Shown piece by piece: positions 26,327 to 39,215 of a DNA stretch of 64,000 bases. This stretch comes from Fusobacteria bacterium ZRK30. GTDB lineage: Bacteria > Fusobacteriota > Fusobacteriia > Fusobacteriales > Fusobacteriaceae. Where the stretch lies: NCBI GenBank assembly GCA_024628785.1, contig CP102404.1, forward strand, positions 806,001 through 870,000. The letters run 5' to 3'. A program made the translations under genes and the position numbers. Position 1 is the first letter of the stretch, and the number at the start of each line of letters is the position of its first letter. Under the pieces are notes generated by a model that was not told the DNA's origin, ran no database searches, and saw only the letters and a list, made by a program, of their open reading frames with translations.

Positions 26327-27278
26327 TATTCCCTCCTAGTCTGTTTCTATAAGCTGCTCCTCCATCAGGATGGGCTGCTCCTACAATTTCACTGATATTC
26401 TCTATGTTGTTTTCTATACAGTATTTTTCTAATCCTTTTTTTATCTCTATTGGTAGTGTCGGGTTACCAAACATTCCTGTTCCCAATGATATAGCACTGG
26501 CTCCTACCATAATAAATTCTATTGCATCCTCTGTAGAAGATATCCCTCCCATTCCAAGAACTGGGATAGATACTGCCTGGGAAACCTGGTATATCATTCT
26601 CAGTGCAACTGGTTTTACAGCTGGTCCTGATAATCCTCCCATTATATTACCTAAAATTGGTTTTCTTTTTCTTATATCTACTGCCATTCCTAACAAAGTA
26701 TTGATAAGAGCTACACCATTTGCTCCCTCTTCCTCTACTATTTTTGCAATCTCTACGATATTAGTTACATTTGGGGATAATTTTACAATCATAGGTTTAC
26801 TTAAAACTTTTCTTACTTCACGGGTTACTAATCTTGCCATCTCTGGATTAGCTCCAAAGGCCATCCCCCCATCCTTGACATTGGGACAAGAGATATTTAG
26901 TTCTACCATCTCTATCTCTTCTATTTGCTCAACTTCTTTAGCGATTTCTATGTATTCTTCCAAGATCTTCCCATTTATATTTGCTACCAGAGGGATATTT
27001 AGTTCTTTTTTTATAGATGGTATTAATTTTTTAAATTCTTCAATCCCTGGGTTTTCCAATCCAACTGAATTTAACATTCCAGATGGTGTTTCAGCAATTC
27101 TGGTACCTGGATTTCCATTTCTAGGTTCCATAGTAATTCCTTTTAATACAGCAGCTCCTAATTCATTAGGATTAAAATAATTTTTGTATTCCAATCCATA
27201 CCCAAAGCATCCAGATGCTGTCATTATAGGATTATTTAATTTCTTCCCTAAAAAACTTATATTTAATCTATTACTCAT
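26310..27278 (-). CDS. pyrD: dihydroorotate dehydrogenase, class 1B catalytic subunit
   Basis: FMN enzyme that oxidises dihydroorotate to orotate. It pairs with PyrK to pass electrons to NAD. The 322 residues contain N-S-V-G-L-E-N-P-G (about 70), the N-I-S-C-P-N active-site block with the class 1 base Cys (about 127), and the FMN phosphate site G-M-G-G-I-S-S (about 243). The adjacent pyrK supports class 1B rather than 1A. Its ATG shares one base with the pyrK stop (TAATG). Confidence 0.95.
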   Translation of the reverse strand: MSNRLNISFLGKKLNNPIMTASGCFGYGLEYKNYFNPNELGAAVLKGITMEPRNGNPGTRIAETPSGMLNSVGLENPGIEEFKKLIPSIKKELNIPLVANINGKILEEYIEIAKEVEQIEEIEMVELNISCPNVKDGGMAFGANPEMARLVTREVRKVLSKPMIVKLSPNVTNIVEIAKIVEEEGANGVALINTLLGMAVDIRKRKPILGNIMGGLSGPAVKPVALRMIYQVSQAVSIPVLGMGGISSTEDAIEFIMVGASAISLGTGMFGNPTLPIEIKKGLEKYCIENNIENISEIVGAAHPDGGAAYRNRLGGNNEIKG

Positions 27279-28069
27279 TATTTACATCCTCCATTTGGAT
27301 CTACCACATCTACGTCTACTATATCTGTACTTTCAAATACCGGTCCATCGTAACAAACTTTTTTCATCCCTTTTTTAGTCAATATCGAGCATCCTACACA
27401 GGCTTTTATTCCACATGCCATCCTTTCTTCTAAAGATATTTGACATCTTATATTATTTTCCTGTGCTACCTTAGCTACTGCCTCCATCATAGGATGGGGT
27501 CCGCATGTATAAATTATATCTATATGTTGATCTTTCAGTACCTCTTTTAGTATATCTACAGTATTTCCTTTTATTCCTACACTACCGTCATCGGTAGCTA
27601 CCTTTAGCTGAATATTTTCAAAATCGAATTTTTCTATTATTTTTACAGCTCCTGCATTTCTTCCTCCACCTATAAAGGTGATATCATTGTTATCTTTTAA
27701 ATCTTTAATGAGATATTTAATTGGAGCCATTCCCATTCCTCCACCGATTACTACTATATTTTTCCCCTTAAGATCTGTATCATAGCCATTTCCTAGAGGT
27801 CCCTGGACATTTATAGTCTCACCTATGGATAGTTGAGTAAATTCTTTAGTTCCTTTTCCTAAAGCTTCATAGTAAAATTCTAAAATATTCCCATCTACAT
27901 TGTGTAGACTTATGGGTCTTCTTAAAACTTTTGAGTTGTCTTTGCATTGGAGCATAAAAAACTGACCTGGTTTAGAATGTTGAGGTATTTTTTTGCCTTC
28001 TACCCTCATTAAATAATAATTATCTGCTATTTGTATATTCTCTATTACCTTAACATCTTCTAAAAACAT
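27278..28069 (-). CDS. pyrK: dihydroorotate dehydrogenase electron-transfer subunit
   Basis: FAD and [2Fe-2S] protein linking PyrD to NAD. In its 263 residues a ferredoxin-reductase-like FAD domain comes first (R-R-P-I-S-L near residue 52), then the NAD-binding region with G-G-G-M-G-M-A-P and C-G-P-H-P-M-M, and a C-terminal cluster C-G-I-K-A-C-V-G-C-S followed by a distant Cys, the four ligands of the iron-sulfur centre. It is first of the five-gene pyr operon, 60 nt after a leader ORF and attenuator. Confidence 0.94.
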   Translation of the reverse strand: MFLEDVKVIENIQIADNYYLMRVEGKKIPQHSKPGQFFMLQCKDNSKVLRRPISLHNVDGNILEFYYEALGKGTKEFTQLSIGETINVQGPLGNGYDTDLKGKNIVVIGGGMGMAPIKYLIKDLKDNNDITFIGGGRNAGAVKIIEKFDFENIQLKVATDDGSVGIKGNTVDILKEVLKDQHIDIIYTCGPHPMMEAVAKVAQENNIRCQISLEERMACGIKACVGCSILTKKGMKKVCYDGPVFESTDIVDVDVVDPNGGCK

Positions 28070-28101: not shown

Positions 28102-28142
28102 AAAAAAAAAGGAATAAAAACTAAAATATTAGTTTTTATTCC
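28102..28142 (-). terminator. attenuator terminator in the pyrK leader
   Basis: Perfect 14-bp stem GGAATAAAAACTAA / TTAGTTTTTATTCC, loop TATT, then nine T residues in the minus direction. It lies before the first structural gene of the operon, and its 5' arm contains the stop codon of the leader ORF. Confidence 0.9.
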
Positions 28143-28272
28143 CACTATTATAAATATAAAAATTAAAAATCGAATTGACTGCTCCAAATATAACATAGGG
28201 AACATCAGTTAAAAAAATAAGAAATTTATCCATGAAATTTATAGAATTATTGTTTATTGTTAAAAATTTCAT
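28129..28272 (-). CDS. pyrK-operon leader peptide (attenuation)
   Basis: A 47-residue ORF (48 if the adjacent ATG at 28275 is used) with GGAGG spaced 6 nt before the ATG at 28272. It starts M-K-F-L-T-I-N-N-N and contains L-T-D-V-P-Y-V-I-F-G-A-V followed by a U-rich codon tract (I-F-N-F-Y-I-Y-N). The TAA stop is the last three bases of the 5' arm of the attenuator, so a ribosome finishing the ORF would cover that arm and block the terminator. The peptide shares D-V-P-Y-x(3)-G-A-V and the I-N-F upstream with the carA leader peptide. By analogy with E. coli pyrBI, transcription should continue when UTP is low and RNA polymerase pauses (inference). It is too short for most gene finders. Confidence 0.85.
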   Translation of the reverse strand: MKFLTINNNSINFMDKFLIFLTDVPYVIFGAVNSIFNFYIYNSGNKN

Positions 28273-28305
28273 CATATTCCTCCCTCTCTTTTTTATCTTT
28301 TAGAG

Positions 28306-28334
28306 ATATTACCACAGCCATAATGAACTGTCAA
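28306..28334 (-). promoter_or_regulatory. promoter of the pyrK-D-F-C-E operon
   Basis: Minus-strand TTGACA (28334-28329), 17-bp spacer, TAATAT (28311-28306). Transcription should begin near 28299, leaving a leader RNA of about 200 nt up to the attenuator. Confidence 0.8.
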
Positions 28335-28343
28335 GGGATTTTT

Positions 28344-28721
28344 TTATTTTTTCCAGTGCCCATGAAGATTGCAATAAGCTCTAGCCTCTGCTTTTTCTCC
28401 ATAACACGCTTTAAAAGTAACTTTTGGTAGATCTCCTGGTTTTAAAAATTGAGTAGATACACATCCGTCCACTATTAATTCTATCCATTCAATATAATGA
28501 TCCTTGTCCATAGGATGAAGAGTCGACCCCACTTGAACCTCATAACCATCACTTAATTTAATAACTTTTGGTATATGCTTTTCTATAGCAGCATCTCTTG
28601 TATTTTCTACCTGTAAAACCATCTCTTTTCCACAACAGCTTAATACTCCAGCCCCTGTATGCATTATCTCTACAATATTACCACATATCTCACATTTAAA
28701 AACCTCTAATTTCTTAGTCAT
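28344..28721 (-). CDS. dfx: desulfoferrodoxin (2Fe superoxide reductase)
   Basis: Reduces superoxide to peroxide without making oxygen, a typical anaerobe defence. In the 125 residues the N-terminal rubredoxin-like centre I has C-E-I-C-G (about 10-14) and S-C-C-G (about 28-31). The catalytic centre II ligands are in E-K-H-I-P-K (about 48), H-P-M-D-K-D-H-Y-I-E-W (about 68-78) and C-N-L-H-G-H-W-K at the end. All metal ligands are present, so it is the full 2Fe type rather than neelaredoxin. It is monocistronic, and the pyrK promoter begins 10 bp after its stop. Confidence 0.95.
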   Translation of the reverse strand: MTKKLEVFKCEICGNIVEIMHTGAGVLSCCGKEMVLQVENTRDAAIEKHIPKVIKLSDGYEVQVGSTLHPMDKDHYIEWIELIVDGCVSTQFLKPGDLPKVTFKACYGEKAEARAYCNLHGHWKK

Positions 28722-33418: not shown

Positions 33419-33447
33419 TTGACACATCCAATTATTTTTGATATTCT
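33419..33447 (+). promoter_or_regulatory. promoter of the carA-carB-pyrB operon
   Basis: TTGACA (33419-33424), 17-bp spacer, TATTCT (33442-33447), ending 31 bp before the leader ORF. It has the same -35 and spacing as the pyrK promoter. Confidence 0.75.
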
Positions 33448-33477: not shown

Positions 33478-33636
33478 TTGAAAAATAAAAGACCGTTAGT
33501 AGTACCAATTAATTTTAACAATATATTTCAATTTAACAAATCTTTATTTTTGAAAGATGTTCCCTATATAGCATATGGAGCTGTATCTTTGTTTTTAAAT
33601 TTTAATAATAATTTTATTCTAAAGAATAATGACTAA
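33478..33636 (+). CDS. carA-operon leader peptide (attenuation)
   Basis: A 52-residue ORF starting at TTG, with AGGAGGTG (33464-33471) at ideal spacing. It begins M-K-N-K-R-P-L-V-V-P-I-N-F and contains F-L-K-D-V-P-Y-I-A-Y-G-A-V, then a U-rich run of codons (L-F-L-N-F-N-N-N-F). The TAA stop is the last three bases of the attenuator 5' arm (33634-33636), exactly as in the pyrK leader. Both leaders share D-V-P-Y-x(3)-G-A-V, an upstream I-N-F, the same GAATAA…ACTAA arm and similar length. Regulation by coupling of translation to polymerase pausing is inferred from the architecture. Alternatively the peptide may stall its own ribosome. Confidence 0.85.
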   Translation: MKNKRPLVVPINFNNIFQFNKSLFLKDVPYIAYGAVSLFLNFNNNFILKNND

Positions 33637-33665
33637 TCTATTTTAGTTATTATTCTTTTTTTTTT
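33622..33665 (+). terminator. attenuator terminator in the carA leader
   Basis: Stem GAATAATGACTAA / TTAGTTATTATTC (13 bp, one G-U pair), loop TCTATT, then ten T residues. It precedes carA by about 30 nt and its 5' arm holds the final codons and stop of the leader ORF. Confidence 0.9.
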
Positions 33666-33696: not shown

Positions 33697-34758
33697 ATGA
33701 AGGCAAAACTGATATTAGAAAATGGAATGGTATTTGAAGGAAAAACTTTTGGTTACACAGAGGAAGCTGTAGGAGAGTTAGTGTTTAATACATCTATGAC
33801 AGGGTACCAAGAAGTTCTTACTGATCCGTCTTATTATGGGCAAATAGTTGTAATGACTTATCCAATGATAGGAAACTACGGTCTTAACCTAGATGACTTA
33901 GAGAGTAATGGTGCAAAGGTAAGAGGGTTTGTAATAAAAGAACCTGCTAAATTACCAAATAACTTTAGATGTGAGATGACCTTGGATGGTTATCTAAAGC
34001 AACATAAGATAATGGGATTTAAAGGTATAGATACAAGACATCTAACTAAGATCATAAGAGATAACGGCTCTATGAAAGCTATCATCACCGTAGATGAGCT
34101 TACACAAAAAGAAATTAAAAATACAATGAATGATTTTTCAAATATAGATGCAGTAAGTACAGTAAGTACAAAAGAGATCTATGAAGCTCCCTGTGGTGCT
34201 GAAAAAGTAAATAAAAAAATCGGAATGATTGATTTTGGTATAAAACAAAATATCATCAGATCATTTCACAAGAGAAACTGTGACTTAACTATATTTCCAT
34301 GGAATACAACTGCTGAGGAGATATTATCCTATGACCTAGATGGTGTATTTTTATCTAATGGGCCTGGAGATCCCGCTGATCTAACAGATGTAATAAATGA
34401 AATAAAGAAAATGATTGGAAAAACTCCTATAATCGGAATATGTTTAGGACACCAACTGCTGGCTTGGGCATTGGGAGGATCAACTAATAAATTAAAGTTT
34501 GGTCATAGAGGAGCTAACCATCCGGTAAAAGATTTGGAAAAAAATAAGATATTTATCACATCTCAAAACCATGGGTATGTAGTAGATAAAATGCCAGAAG
34601 GTGTGGAGATCACTCAAATAAACTTAAATGATAACTCAGTAGAGGGAATGAAAGATTACAAGAATAAGATAGCATCAGTACAATACCATCCAGAAGCAGC
34701 ACCAGGACCGGAAGATTCTCAATATGTATTCGATGATTTCATTAAGATGTTGGGATAG
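33697..34758 (+). CDS. carA: carbamoyl-phosphate synthase small (glutaminase) subunit
   Basis: Releases ammonia from glutamine for the large subunit. Of its 353 residues the N-terminal half is the CarA-specific domain (M-T-G-Y-Q-E-V-L-T-D-P-S-Y near residue 36). The C-terminal half is a class I amidotransferase with the nucleophile in G-I-C-L-G-H-Q-L-L (about 249) and the catalytic His-Glu in Y-H-P-E-A (about 331). The start has CTAGGAGG upstream. It is first structural gene of the carA-carB-pyrB operon, behind the leader attenuator. Confidence 0.96.
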   Translation: MKAKLILENGMVFEGKTFGYTEEAVGELVFNTSMTGYQEVLTDPSYYGQIVVMTYPMIGNYGLNLDDLESNGAKVRGFVIKEPAKLPNNFRCEMTLDGYLKQHKIMGFKGIDTRHLTKIIRDNGSMKAIITVDELTQKEIKNTMNDFSNIDAVSTVSTKEIYEAPCGAEKVNKKIGMIDFGIKQNIIRSFHKRNCDLTIFPWNTTAEEILSYDLDGVFLSNGPGDPADLTDVINEIKKMIGKTPIIGICLGHQLLAWALGGSTNKLKFGHRGANHPVKDLEKNKIFITSQNHGYVVDKMPEGVEITQINLNDNSVEGMKDYKNKIASVQYHPEAAPGPEDSQYVFDDFIKMLG

Positions 34759-34846
34759 AGCAGATAATTAATGGTTATATAAAAGAAAGACAATATACTA
34801 GAAAAAAATTAGTAATTACTAATTTAAATATATGGAGGTTAACTCA

Positions 34847-37800
34847 ATGTTAGATAAAAATATAAAGAAAACCCTTGTAATAGGATCAGGACCAATTGTA
34901 ATAGGACAAGCTGCTGAATTTGATTATTCTGGAACCCAGGCTTGTGAAGCATTGAAGGAAGAGGGAATAGAAGTAGTATTAATAAACTCTAACCCCGCTA
35001 CCATAATGACAGATAAAAGTGTAGCCGATAGAATATACATAGAACCTATTACATTGGAATTTGTAACTAAGGTAATCATAAAGGAAAAACCAGATTCAAT
35101 CTTAGTTGGAATGGGTGGACAAACTGCTCTTAATATGGCAGTAGAATTAGAAGACAGTGGAATATTGGCAGAACACAATATAAAGGTATTGGGAACAACT
35201 ATTGATTCTATCAAAAGAGGAGAAGACAGAGACCTCTTTAGGGATGCTATGAATAAGATAGGGGAACCTACTATAGAGAGTATGATAGTTGAGAACCTAG
35301 AAGATGGATTGGAGTTCGCTGCAAAAATAGGATATCCATTAATTGTAAGACCTGCATATACACTAGGTGGTACTGGAGGAGGGATGGCAAATAACCCTCA
35401 AGAGTTAGAAGACATCTTATTGAAAGGATTAGTATTATCTCGTGTAGGACAAGTATTAGTTGAAAAATCTATCCTTGGATGGAAAGAAGTAGAATATGAG
35501 GTAATGAGAGATATAAATGGAAACAGAATTACAGTATGTAATATGGAAAATATCGACCCAGTTGGAATCCATACAGGAGACAGTATAGTAGTAGCACCAT
35601 CTCAAACACTATCTGACAAAGAATACCAAATGCTGAGAACATCTGCACTTAATATCATCGATGAGATTGGAATTGTAGGAGGGTGTAATGTACAGTTCGC
35701 TCTTAATCCCGATTCATTTGAATATGCAATTATTGAGATCAACCCTAGAGTATCAAGATCATCTGCATTAGCTTCTAAAGCTACTGGTTATCCAATCGCC
35801 AGAGTAGCAGCAAAATTATCATTAGGATATACTCTGGATGAAGTAAAAAATGAAGTTACAGGAAAAACATATGCTTGCTTTGAACCGGCACTGGACTATA
35901 TAGTAGTCAAGATTCCAAAGTGGCCATTTGATAAATTTGAGAAGGCTGACAGAAAATTAGGTACAAAGATGATGGCTACTGGAGAGATTATGGCTATTGG
36001 AAATAACTTTGAATCGGCATTTTTAAAAGGTGTGAGATCATTGGAGATCGGACAATACGGTTTAGAGCATAAGGCCTCTACAATTAGATCTATGCAGGAA
36101 TTAAAGAAAAGGGTAGTGAGCCCAGACGATGAAAGAATATTTGACCTTGCTGAGATGCTGAGACGTGGATATACAAAGACTATGTTACAAAAAATTACCG
36201 GGATGGATCCATTCTTTATGGAGAAACTTCAATGGATAGTGAACCAGGAAGAAATTCTAAAGAAAACTAAATTATCTGACCTTACTCCTAAAAATCTTAG
36301 AAACTGGAAGAAGAAAGGTTTCTCAGACAGAGCAATGGCAAAATTTATGGGGATTAGTGAAGATGATATAGTCGCTAAAAGAAAAGAGTTAAACGTTATG
36401 CCTGTATACAAGATGGTAGATACCTGCGCAGGAGAATTTGAAGCTTCTTCATCTTATTACTACTCAACTTACGATATGCATGATGAAGTAGAGATATCAG
36501 ACAGAAGAAAAGTTATAGTAATCGGATCAGGGCCTATAAGAATTGGACAGGGAATTGAATTTGACTACTGTACAGTACACACAGTAAAAGCATTACAAAA
36601 TTTAGATATAGAGACTATTATCATAAACAATAATCCTGAGACTGTTTCTACAGATTTCTCAACTGCCGATAAATTATACTTTGAACCATTGGTATTAGAA
36701 GATGTTATGAACATAATTGAAAAAGAGAATCCAGAGGGAGTTATACTCCAATTTGGCGGACAGACTGCTATAAAATTAGCAAATGATCTGGCAGACTTAG
36801 GAATTAATATAATCGGTACTTCTGCTGAGATGATAGATGCCGCTGAAGACAGAGAAAGATTTGAAGCTATCTTAGAAAAACTAGATATAAATAGACCAAA
36901 GGGAAGAGCTGTTTGGAATACTGAAGACGGTATAGCAGAAGCTGAAAAAGTAAAATATCCGGTGTTGGTAAGACCTTCATATGTACTGGGCGGACAAGGG
37001 ATGGAGATCTGTTACCTAGAGGAAAACTTAAAAGGTTATTTAGAAGCTTCATTCATTAGAGATCCTAAAAATCCAGTATTAGTAGATAAATACTTAAATG
37101 GTGTAGAGATCGAAGTAGATGCAATCTGTGACGGAGAAAACGTTCTTATTCCTGGAATCATGGAACATCTTGAAAGAGCAGGAATTCATTCTGGTGACTC
37201 AATTACAGTTTATCCGCAGCAAAATCTATATGAAGGAACAGAAGAAGAGATCTTAGAGATCACTAAAAAATTAGCTAAAGAATTAAATATAGTAGGGATG
37301 ATGAATATACAATTTATAGCCTATGAAAACAAATTATATATCATAGAAGTAAATCCAAGATCATCTAGAACAGTACCTTATATATCAAAAGTAGCCGGGG
37401 TTCCAATGATCGAACTGGCAACAAAAGTAATGCTGGGACAAAAATTGGCTGATCTGCCATATGGTACGGGAATATATAAGAAACCAGATTTAGTAGCAGT
37501 AAAGGTACCAGTATTCTCTACAGAAAAACTTGGTGGTGTAGAAGTATCATTAGGACCTGAGATGAAGTCTACAGGAGAAGTACTGGGAATAGGAAATAAT
37601 ATGGACGAAGCTATTTACAAAGGTCTTGTAGGTGGATACAGAATCCATGAGATTAAAAATAAGAGAGTTTTAGCCACTATAAAGGGAAGTGACAAAGAGG
37701 AGTTCTTCAGCCTGGCTAAAAGACTCATAGATCAAGGATGTACAATGATTGGAACTGGTGGAACTGCTGAATATCTAAATAATAATGGAGTTCCATGTGA

Positions 37801-38053
37801 GACGGTCAATAAAATAAATGAAGCATCTCCTAATATAATCGATAAATTAAAAACTCAACAAATAGATCTACTTATCAACACTCCAACAAAAGCAAATGAT
37901 GCTCAAAGAGATGGATTCAAGATAAGAAGAACTGCTATAGAATACGGTGTAGAAGTGTTAACTTCATTGGATACACTAAATGCAGTATTAAATATCATGG
38001 AAAAGGATGTAAATACCAGAGACTTAGATATCTTTGATATCAGCCAAATATAA
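34847..38053 (+). CDS. carB: carbamoyl-phosphate synthase large subunit
   Basis: Makes carbamoyl phosphate from bicarbonate, ammonia and two ATP. The start is set at ATG 34847, because the upstream in-frame ATG at 34832 overlaps the ribosome site TGGAGG. The 1,068-residue product has the two homologous synthetase halves: [17 protein letters not shown] (about 14) and [15 protein letters not shown] (about 560), each followed by an ATP-grasp domain. A C-terminal allosteric MGS-like domain (about 930-1060) contains G-T-G-G-T-A. Full length. Confidence 0.96.
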
Positions 38054-38100
38054 TAGACTCTGCTGTAGGATATTCGGGAAAATATAATTTAATAAAAAAT

Positions 38101-38129
38101 TTGAAAGAGGTTGTATAACGACCTCTTTC
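38101..38129 (+). terminator. hairpin in the carB-pyrB gap
   Basis: Stem GAAAGAGGT / ACCTCTTTC with a 9-nt loop, followed by CATAATATC rather than a T-run. It may be a weak terminator or a processing/stability element that sets pyrB level. No leader ORF like those at pyrK and carA is seen here. Confidence 0.45.
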
Positions 38130-38192
38130 ATAATATCTAATTTATGTTCATTTAGAGAAATCATTAAAAAAAAGGAAAGTAAGGAGGAAAAT

Positions 38193-39215
38193 TTGAAGGA
38201 AATACTATCATTAAATAATTTAACAGTAACAGATATCTTAAGTATCTTAGATAAGGCAAGAGAATTGGAAAATGACCCTAAACCTTGTGAGTTGGAAAAT
38301 AAAATTTTATCCACTGTGTTTTTTGAACCATCTACCCGGACTAAGTTATCTTTTATAAGTGCTATGTACAGATTAGGAGGAAAGGTCATAGAGTTAGATG
38401 GAGGAGGAAATAACTCCCTAAAAAAAGGGGAAACAATCTCCGATACCCTCACTATGATGGGCCTCTATACTGACATTATGGCAATCAGAAGTCCCTATGA
38501 GGGAACGGCTAAGAGAGCCAGTGAAATATTAGATATACCTGTAATAAATGCAGGTGATGGAGCCAACCAGCATCCTACCCAGACTTTACTCGATCTCTAT
38601 ACTATACAGAAGGAAAAAGGGAGATTAGATAATTTAGAAATTGCATTTGTAGGAGATCTTAAATATGGAAGAACTGTTCACTCACTAGCTAAGGCACTAG
38701 ATAAATTCAGCGGGAATAAAATTTATTTTATAGCCCCTCCTGAGATGCAGATACCATCTTACATCTTAGATTCTCTTTCTTTAGAATATGAAGTTTTAGA
38801 AAACTATGAACCTATTATGAAGGATGTAGATATCCTGTATATGACTAGAATACAAGAGGAAAGATTTGATGATCCCAAAGATTTTAAAAAATGTGCCGGT
38901 AAATATCAAATAGATAAAGAAATTTTAAAAATATCCAAATCTGATTTAAAAATTCTTCATCCACTACCCAGAGTAGGTGAGATCCATACAGACCTAGATT
39001 CTACTCCAAATGCAGTTTATTTTTCCCAGGCTAAAAATGGTGTTTTTGTCAGGCAGTCTATCATGAGCTTACTCATGAAAGATCACACTAAACCTACATA
39101 TAACGGGATAGACAAAAGCTGTAAAAATCCTAAATGTATCTCGCAGATAGAGGATTTAGGAGGAAAGTGGATAGACCTTAAAGGGAAAAAAGTCTGTTTT
39201 TATTGTGAAAAATAA
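38193..39215 (+). CDS. pyrB: aspartate carbamoyltransferase with fused PyrI-type zinc domain
   Basis: Condenses carbamoyl phosphate and aspartate. TTG start behind AAGGAGG. Residues 1-300 form a complete catalytic chain: F-E-P-S-T-R-T (about 44-50), the H-P-T-Q motif (about 126-129) and H-P-L-P-R (about 260). The last 35 residues read C-K-N-P-K-C-I and end C-F-Y-C-E-K, matching the zinc-binding C-terminal domain of the PyrI regulatory chain. The nucleotide-binding PyrI domain is absent and no pyrI gene follows. The tail could tie catalytic trimers together through zinc without allosteric control (inference). Last gene of the operon. Confidence 0.94.
   Translation: MKEILSLNNLTVTDILSILDKARELENDPKPCELENKILSTVFFEPSTRTKLSFISAMYRLGGKVIELDGGGNNSLKKGETISDTLTMMGLYTDIMAIRSPYEGTAKRASEILDIPVINAGDGANQHPTQTLLDLYTIQKEKGRLDNLEIAFVGDLKYGRTVHSLAKALDKFSGNKIYFIAPPEMQIPSYILDSLSLEYEVLENYEPIMKDVDILYMTRIQEERFDDPKDFKKCAGKYQIDKEILKISKSDLKILHPLPRVGEIHTDLDSTPNAVYFSQAKNGVFVRQSIMSLLMKDHTKPTYNGIDKSCKNPKCISQIEDLGGKWIDLKGKKVCFYCEK

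Follow-up and report, generated by a model that had tools for sequence, protein, structure and literature searches.

In Escherichia coli, pyrBI and pyrE are under UTP-sensitive attenuation (PMC4491880), and ribosome-polymerase coupling across pyrL, the leader frame of pyrBI, blocks its terminator (PMC5021804). A stop codon within a few base pairs of a terminator represses it, while gaps of >27 nt do not, and in short leaders pause sites are needed to enforce coupling (PMC4824070); the pyrL pause site studied in PMC9291695 showed no hairpin rescue and no effect of NusA. E. coli carAB is controlled by repressors and UTP-dependent reiterative transcription, with attenuation reported to be absent at its P2 promoter (PMC6245113). 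The open-access literature that we searched, which misses many classic papers, yielded no description of a translation-coupled pyr attenuator in Fusobacteriota and no account of pyrimidine-synthesis control in Fusobacteriaceae.

We analyzed a 64,000-nt stretch of the genome of Fusobacteria bacterium ZRK30 (hereafter the window; contig CP102404.1, positions 806,001 to 870,000), in which an intrinsic terminator lies between the promoter and the first pyr gene of both the pyrK and the carA operons and a leader ORF with a ribosome site (GGGAGG and AGGAGG, respectively) extends to that terminator (Table 1). All of the features that a first-pass annotation had read at the pyrK leader (promoter, ribosome site, 47-codon ORF, 14-bp terminator and nine T) were found in place. 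The pyrK terminator is GGAATAAAAACTAA / TATT / TTAGTTTTTATTCC, and its 5' arm ends with the stop codon TAA of the ORF. The carA leader, with the peptide motif DVPYIAYGAV, has the matching stop-in-stem geometry attributed to it earlier: TAA is likewise the last three bases of the 14-bp 5' arm AGAATAATGACTAA. An alternative ATG of the pyrK leader ORF is present at 28275, 3 nt upstream of the ATG at 28272, and other species mostly retain the latter alone. A desulfoferrodoxin gene (window 28344-28721) lies directly upstream of the pyrK promoter on the same strand. Between carB and pyrB there is a hairpin, GAAAGAGGT...ACCTCTTTC (window 38103-38130), without a T run on the plus strand. The pyrB product (gene at window 38193-39215) is a catalytic chain of 340 aa with just the zinc part of a regulatory chain: at its C terminus it weakly matches the PyrI metal-binding domain (PF02748, E 5e-4) and it ends in a four-cysteine motif, and similar tails are found on the gene upstream of pyrK in other genera.

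Table 1. Features of the pyrK and carA leaders and their operons in window coordinates.
Feature	Position	Strand	Basis or remark
pyrK operon promoter, TTGACA-17-TAATAT (TTGACA 28334-28329, 17-nt spacer, TAATAT 28311-28306); sigma-70	28306..28334	-	read directly
pyrK leader ORF, 47 codons, ATG 28272, TAA ending at 28129	28129..28272	-	frame kept in 8/8 species of the genus
Predicted RNA hairpin GUUCC/GGAGC, candidate pause hairpin; arms are the V-P and G-A codons of DVPYVIFGAV	28181..28203	-	RNAalifold consensus of 16 leaders and individual folds
U-rich tract inside pyrK leader ORF, candidate UTP-sensitive pause region	28149..28170	-	sequence
Intrinsic terminator stem-loop of pyrK leader, perfect 14 bp	28111..28142	-	sequence
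Terminator T run, 9 T	28102..28110	-	sequence
pyrK, first gene of operon pyrK-pyrD-pyrF-pyrC-pyrE	27278..28069; operon down to 23663	-	gene calls secure
carA operon promoter, TTGACA-17-TATTCT	33419..33447	+	sequence
carA leader ORF, 52 codons, TTG start 33478, stop TAA 33634-33636	33478..33636	+	stop inside terminator 5' arm
carA counterpart of predicted hairpin GUUCC/GGAGC	33559..33581	+	individual folds, RNAalifold
U-rich tract of carA leader	33587..33619	+	sequence, composition
Intrinsic terminator of carA leader, 14-bp stem with one G-U pair, and T run	33623..33665	+	sequence, RNAalifold
carA, carB and pyrB, operon behind carA leader	33697..39215	+	gene calls secure

Both leaders resemble pyrL of E. 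coli pyrBI in that a pyr gene is immediately preceded by an intrinsic terminator, into or through which a short, RBS-preceded ORF with an internal T-rich stretch runs, an arrangement that does not need an antiterminator. They differ from pyrL in the position of the stop codon (in the 5' arm in the window, past the T run in pyrL), in the operons controlled (carAB-pyrB and pyrK-pyrD-pyrF-pyrC-pyrE) and in that fusobacterial leaders are far more U-rich, a property less distinctive than in E. coli because these genomes are AT-rich. The leader frame of E. coli rph-pyrE is a full gene (rph), whereas the leader here is a dedicated short ORF. Like E. coli pyrE (PMC4491880), the present operons would have, ahead of a pyr gene, attenuation that is coupled to translation and sensitive to UTP, a response to UTP that we infer here.

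We consider it likely that both pyr operons are under pyrBI-type attenuation that is sensitive to UTP and coupled to translation. Polymerase would start at the promoter and a ribosome would load on the leader ORF; if UTP were scarce, polymerase would slow in the U-rich tract, possibly aided in Psychrilyobacter, the genus of this genome, by the hairpin of the V-P and G-A codons, and the ribosome would catch up, reaching the stop codon within the 5' arm while the terminator is being made. Since that stop is inside the 5' arm, a ribosome keeping pace with polymerase would block the terminator: with the arm covered no hairpin would form and the operon would be transcribed. If UTP were plentiful, polymerase would stay ahead, the terminator would fold and transcription would end, so that the sign of the response would be genes on when UTP is scarce.

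The phylum set comprised 98 genomes, 8 of them from Psychrilyobacter. In these 8 genomes the carA and pyrK leaders align over 120-125 nt with gaps in just 3 and 2 columns, and a 120-nt covariance model built from the leaders of the genus gave exactly two strong matches per genome, at carA and at pyrK, in 8/8; the leaders are homologous and present in two copies per genome. Weak matches of the model in other genera include several that precede carA or pyrB-pyrK genes (genomes G054, G002, G008, G034 and G036). The leader peptides had no match in Pfam or NCBIfam. No relatives were confirmed when 84,980 genomes were scanned for the leader-peptide motif, a result of little weight because the genus itself may be missing from that set and tblastn performs poorly on short low-complexity peptides.

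The same arrangement is found in most genera of Fusobacteriaceae and in one genus of a sister family (g25), upstream of carA and of pyrB preceding pyrK, and across these groups it recurs in dozens of genomes. The paired pyrimidine regulon that the first-pass annotation had proposed, in which leader ORFs and attenuators match, is supported by the two copies per genome in the genus and by the recurrence on carA and pyrB operons across the family. Our detector, which recovered E. coli pyrL as a positive control, yielded 47 leaders of 26-71 codons (median 48), of which 41/47 have their stop codon within the 5' arm or the loop or past them. It accepts only stops near a terminator, and its chance rate therefore matters: after dinucleotide shuffling of the upstream 200 nt, an ORF of 30 codons or more that follows an RBS and ends at the terminator arose in ~2% of trials on average and in 1.3% for this genus. 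In genus g3 most carA leader ORFs pass right through the terminator and T run (...FHIPFFMQKI*), as does pyrL (...RGAFFCPGVRR*). The detected leaders carry a net positive charge of ~4 in their first 16 residues, and Phe, Ile, Asn and Leu are abundant in the remainder; the frame and RBS are retained between genera and the peptides are unrelated. Further leaders missed by the detector are visible by eye in g1 (genome G059), g7, g8, g10 and g11. The detector found none upstream of carA in genera g13, g15, g18, g19, g21 and g29, and none in 70 more distant carA upstream regions (L145-L214, mostly from Clostridia and most without any terminator). At two g13 loci (L071 and L074) carA sits directly behind a promoter with no leader found, and both carA and pyrK are present.

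Conservation of DVPYxxxGA between the carA and pyrK types is real, and FLxDVPY does not vary among 15 distinct peptides from leaders of the genus, but it is limited to Psychrilyobacter: the DVPY motif is absent from every detected leader outside it. Even the nearest relative outside the genus (locus L141; CarA identity 78%), which has almost the same terminator, reads MEIKFKNIQFKNKKFRSDIFLIDSLDNAFYLYLRNNN and lacks the motif. This locus comes from a hydrothermal-vent MAG labelled Clostridia that carries a fusobacterial-type leader and is probably a Fusobacteriota genome under the wrong label. The motif itself had pN/pS of 0.30 (carA) and 0.86 (pyrK) within the genus, compared with 0.04 and 0.12 for the genes downstream. 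In the segment running from motif to stem, pS was 0.14 and 0.06, below every gene window of carA (minimum 0.24) and of pyrK (minimum 0.25); pN windows of the pyrK gene, probably inflated by an indel, were not used, and a 100-codon control was used instead. Because conservation of synonymous sites in this segment exceeds that in every window of the downstream genes, the constraint appears to act mainly on nucleotides. The N-terminal part of the leader ORF has pN/pS of 0.27-0.39 with the frame intact, which is consistent with translation, and we infer from the conserved frame that the leader ORF is translated.

These comparisons bear on the suggestion, made in the first-pass annotation, of an arrest peptide, in which a nascent chain ending in DVPYxxxGAV would stall the ribosome on the presence or absence of a pyrimidine signal and the stall would control the terminator. 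The invariant motif common to both leader types speaks for such a peptide, and we nevertheless regard it as very unlikely, given the absence of the motif beyond the genus (a finding that the first-pass annotation had itself named as a refutation), the constraint on synonymous sites and the position of G-A-V. Because the latter lies ~40 nt upstream of the stem, a ribosome stalled there would be too far away to cover the terminator, and no conserved antiterminator through which it might act was predicted. The shared DVPY motif is best read as reflecting common descent of the two leaders together with nucleotide-level constraint, not a sensing peptide.

A conserved pause signal, the other function suggested for the motif, is borne out in part. 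RNAalifold on 16 leaders of the genus predicted just two hairpins. One is the terminator, in which two pairs covary between the carA and pyrK types; the other is GUUCC/GGAGC, which is formed by the motif codons and lies before the U-rich tract, where a pause hairpin would be expected. Tried as an exceptional structure, this hairpin was rejected: random synonymous recoding of the same peptide often gives comparable stability, and for that reason we take the V-P/G-A hairpin as suggestive only. At the corresponding place in other leaders, local hairpins reached significance in g9 (p 0.01 or less), were borderline (0.05) in a single g12 leader and were not significant elsewhere, so a pause hairpin is not a general part of the system. 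In the g9 carA leaders L012 and L014 the hairpin predicted at the position of the V-P/G-A hairpin, UUGAGAUAUUUA/UGAAUAUUUCAA (p 0.01 or less), is strong and unrelated to it in sequence. Also conceivable, though very unlikely, is that DVPYxxxGA is a dual-use element of the genus that would both form a pause hairpin and slow the ribosome, directly or via a pyrimidine signal, with the leader peptide tuning the race between ribosome and polymerase.

The leader ORF and the U-rich tract are common to the genera, whereas the hairpin is not. T content of the leader ORFs averaged 42-50% by genus, against 28 ± 4% (maximum 40%) in the genes of the window, and A content differed little in most genera. T makes up 50% of the 60 nt before the pyrK stem; in a small control of the nine other terminators of the window, eight had 22-38% and the ninth 50%. 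On composition, the U-rich region between start codon and terminator is a candidate pause region, and the U-rich leaders would supply the UTP dependence through pausing.

The same composition could be taken for an amino-acid attenuator responding to the charged tRNA for an abundant leader codon (Phe, Asn or Ile), since the last 25 leader codons are rich in Phe (19%), Ile and Asn. That abundance is explained by U-rich codons. The downstream genes are pyrimidine genes, and a search for antiterminators predicted none that is conserved, pairings that compete for the 5' arm averaging -5.1 kcal/mol against -12.0 kcal/mol for the terminator. Moreover, a ribosome that stalled upstream of the stem would promote termination, whereas a biosynthetic operon would have to respond in the opposite way. 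We hold this explanation to be very unlikely.

A terminator upstream of pyr operons is also a feature of PyrR-controlled attenuators (Rfam RF00515), which need PyrR and an RNA-binding element and are found in one fusobacterial genus; the window's genome lacks both as far as tested and has a leader ORF instead. PyrR scored above the curated cutoff in 3/98 genomes, all of genus g4, and the best hit in the window's genome reached 30.6 bits against a cutoff of 138. TIGR01744 was set aside as a marker, being the XPRTase family and not PyrR, and it says nothing about PyrR. In g4 the detector found no leader ORF; Rfam PyrR elements are present in 2/3 genomes, and the third has terminators and no element above threshold. 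Leader ORFs and PyrR are mutually exclusive, the pattern to be expected if one pyrimidine attenuation system had taken the place of another. The g4 case, together with the conserved hairpin upstream of the terminator in Psychrilyobacter, is what speaks for a trans-acting regulator, PyrR-like or another protein, that would bind a leader RNA hairpin and control termination. With no PyrR above cutoff in the window's genome, no Rfam family at gathering score in the window (a chance snoRNA match alone at a lax threshold) and a hairpin confined as described above, we judge such a regulator highly improbable for the leaders studied here.

Pyrimidine attenuation of the pyrBI type, our preferred reading, would then be present in two distant groups. 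By inspection, the fusobacterial peptides show no resemblance to pyrL, and they also vary from genus to genus. As the anatomy of a pyrL-type leader is present and no resemblance to pyrL was seen, convergence with enterobacterial pyrL is likely, though not proven. Rather than a new arrest peptide, the leaders would represent a known mechanism in a fusobacterial version that is widespread and, it appears, undescribed.

PyrR is missing from most Fusobacteriaceae that have pyr genes. Our results point to a switch that senses nucleotides without a regulatory protein, that recurs with unrelated peptides across a phylum distant from the enterobacteria, and that in one genus appears to have been replaced by PyrR and its RNA element. 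It also illustrates that a strikingly conserved leader peptide can reflect constraint on nucleotides rather than a functional peptide.
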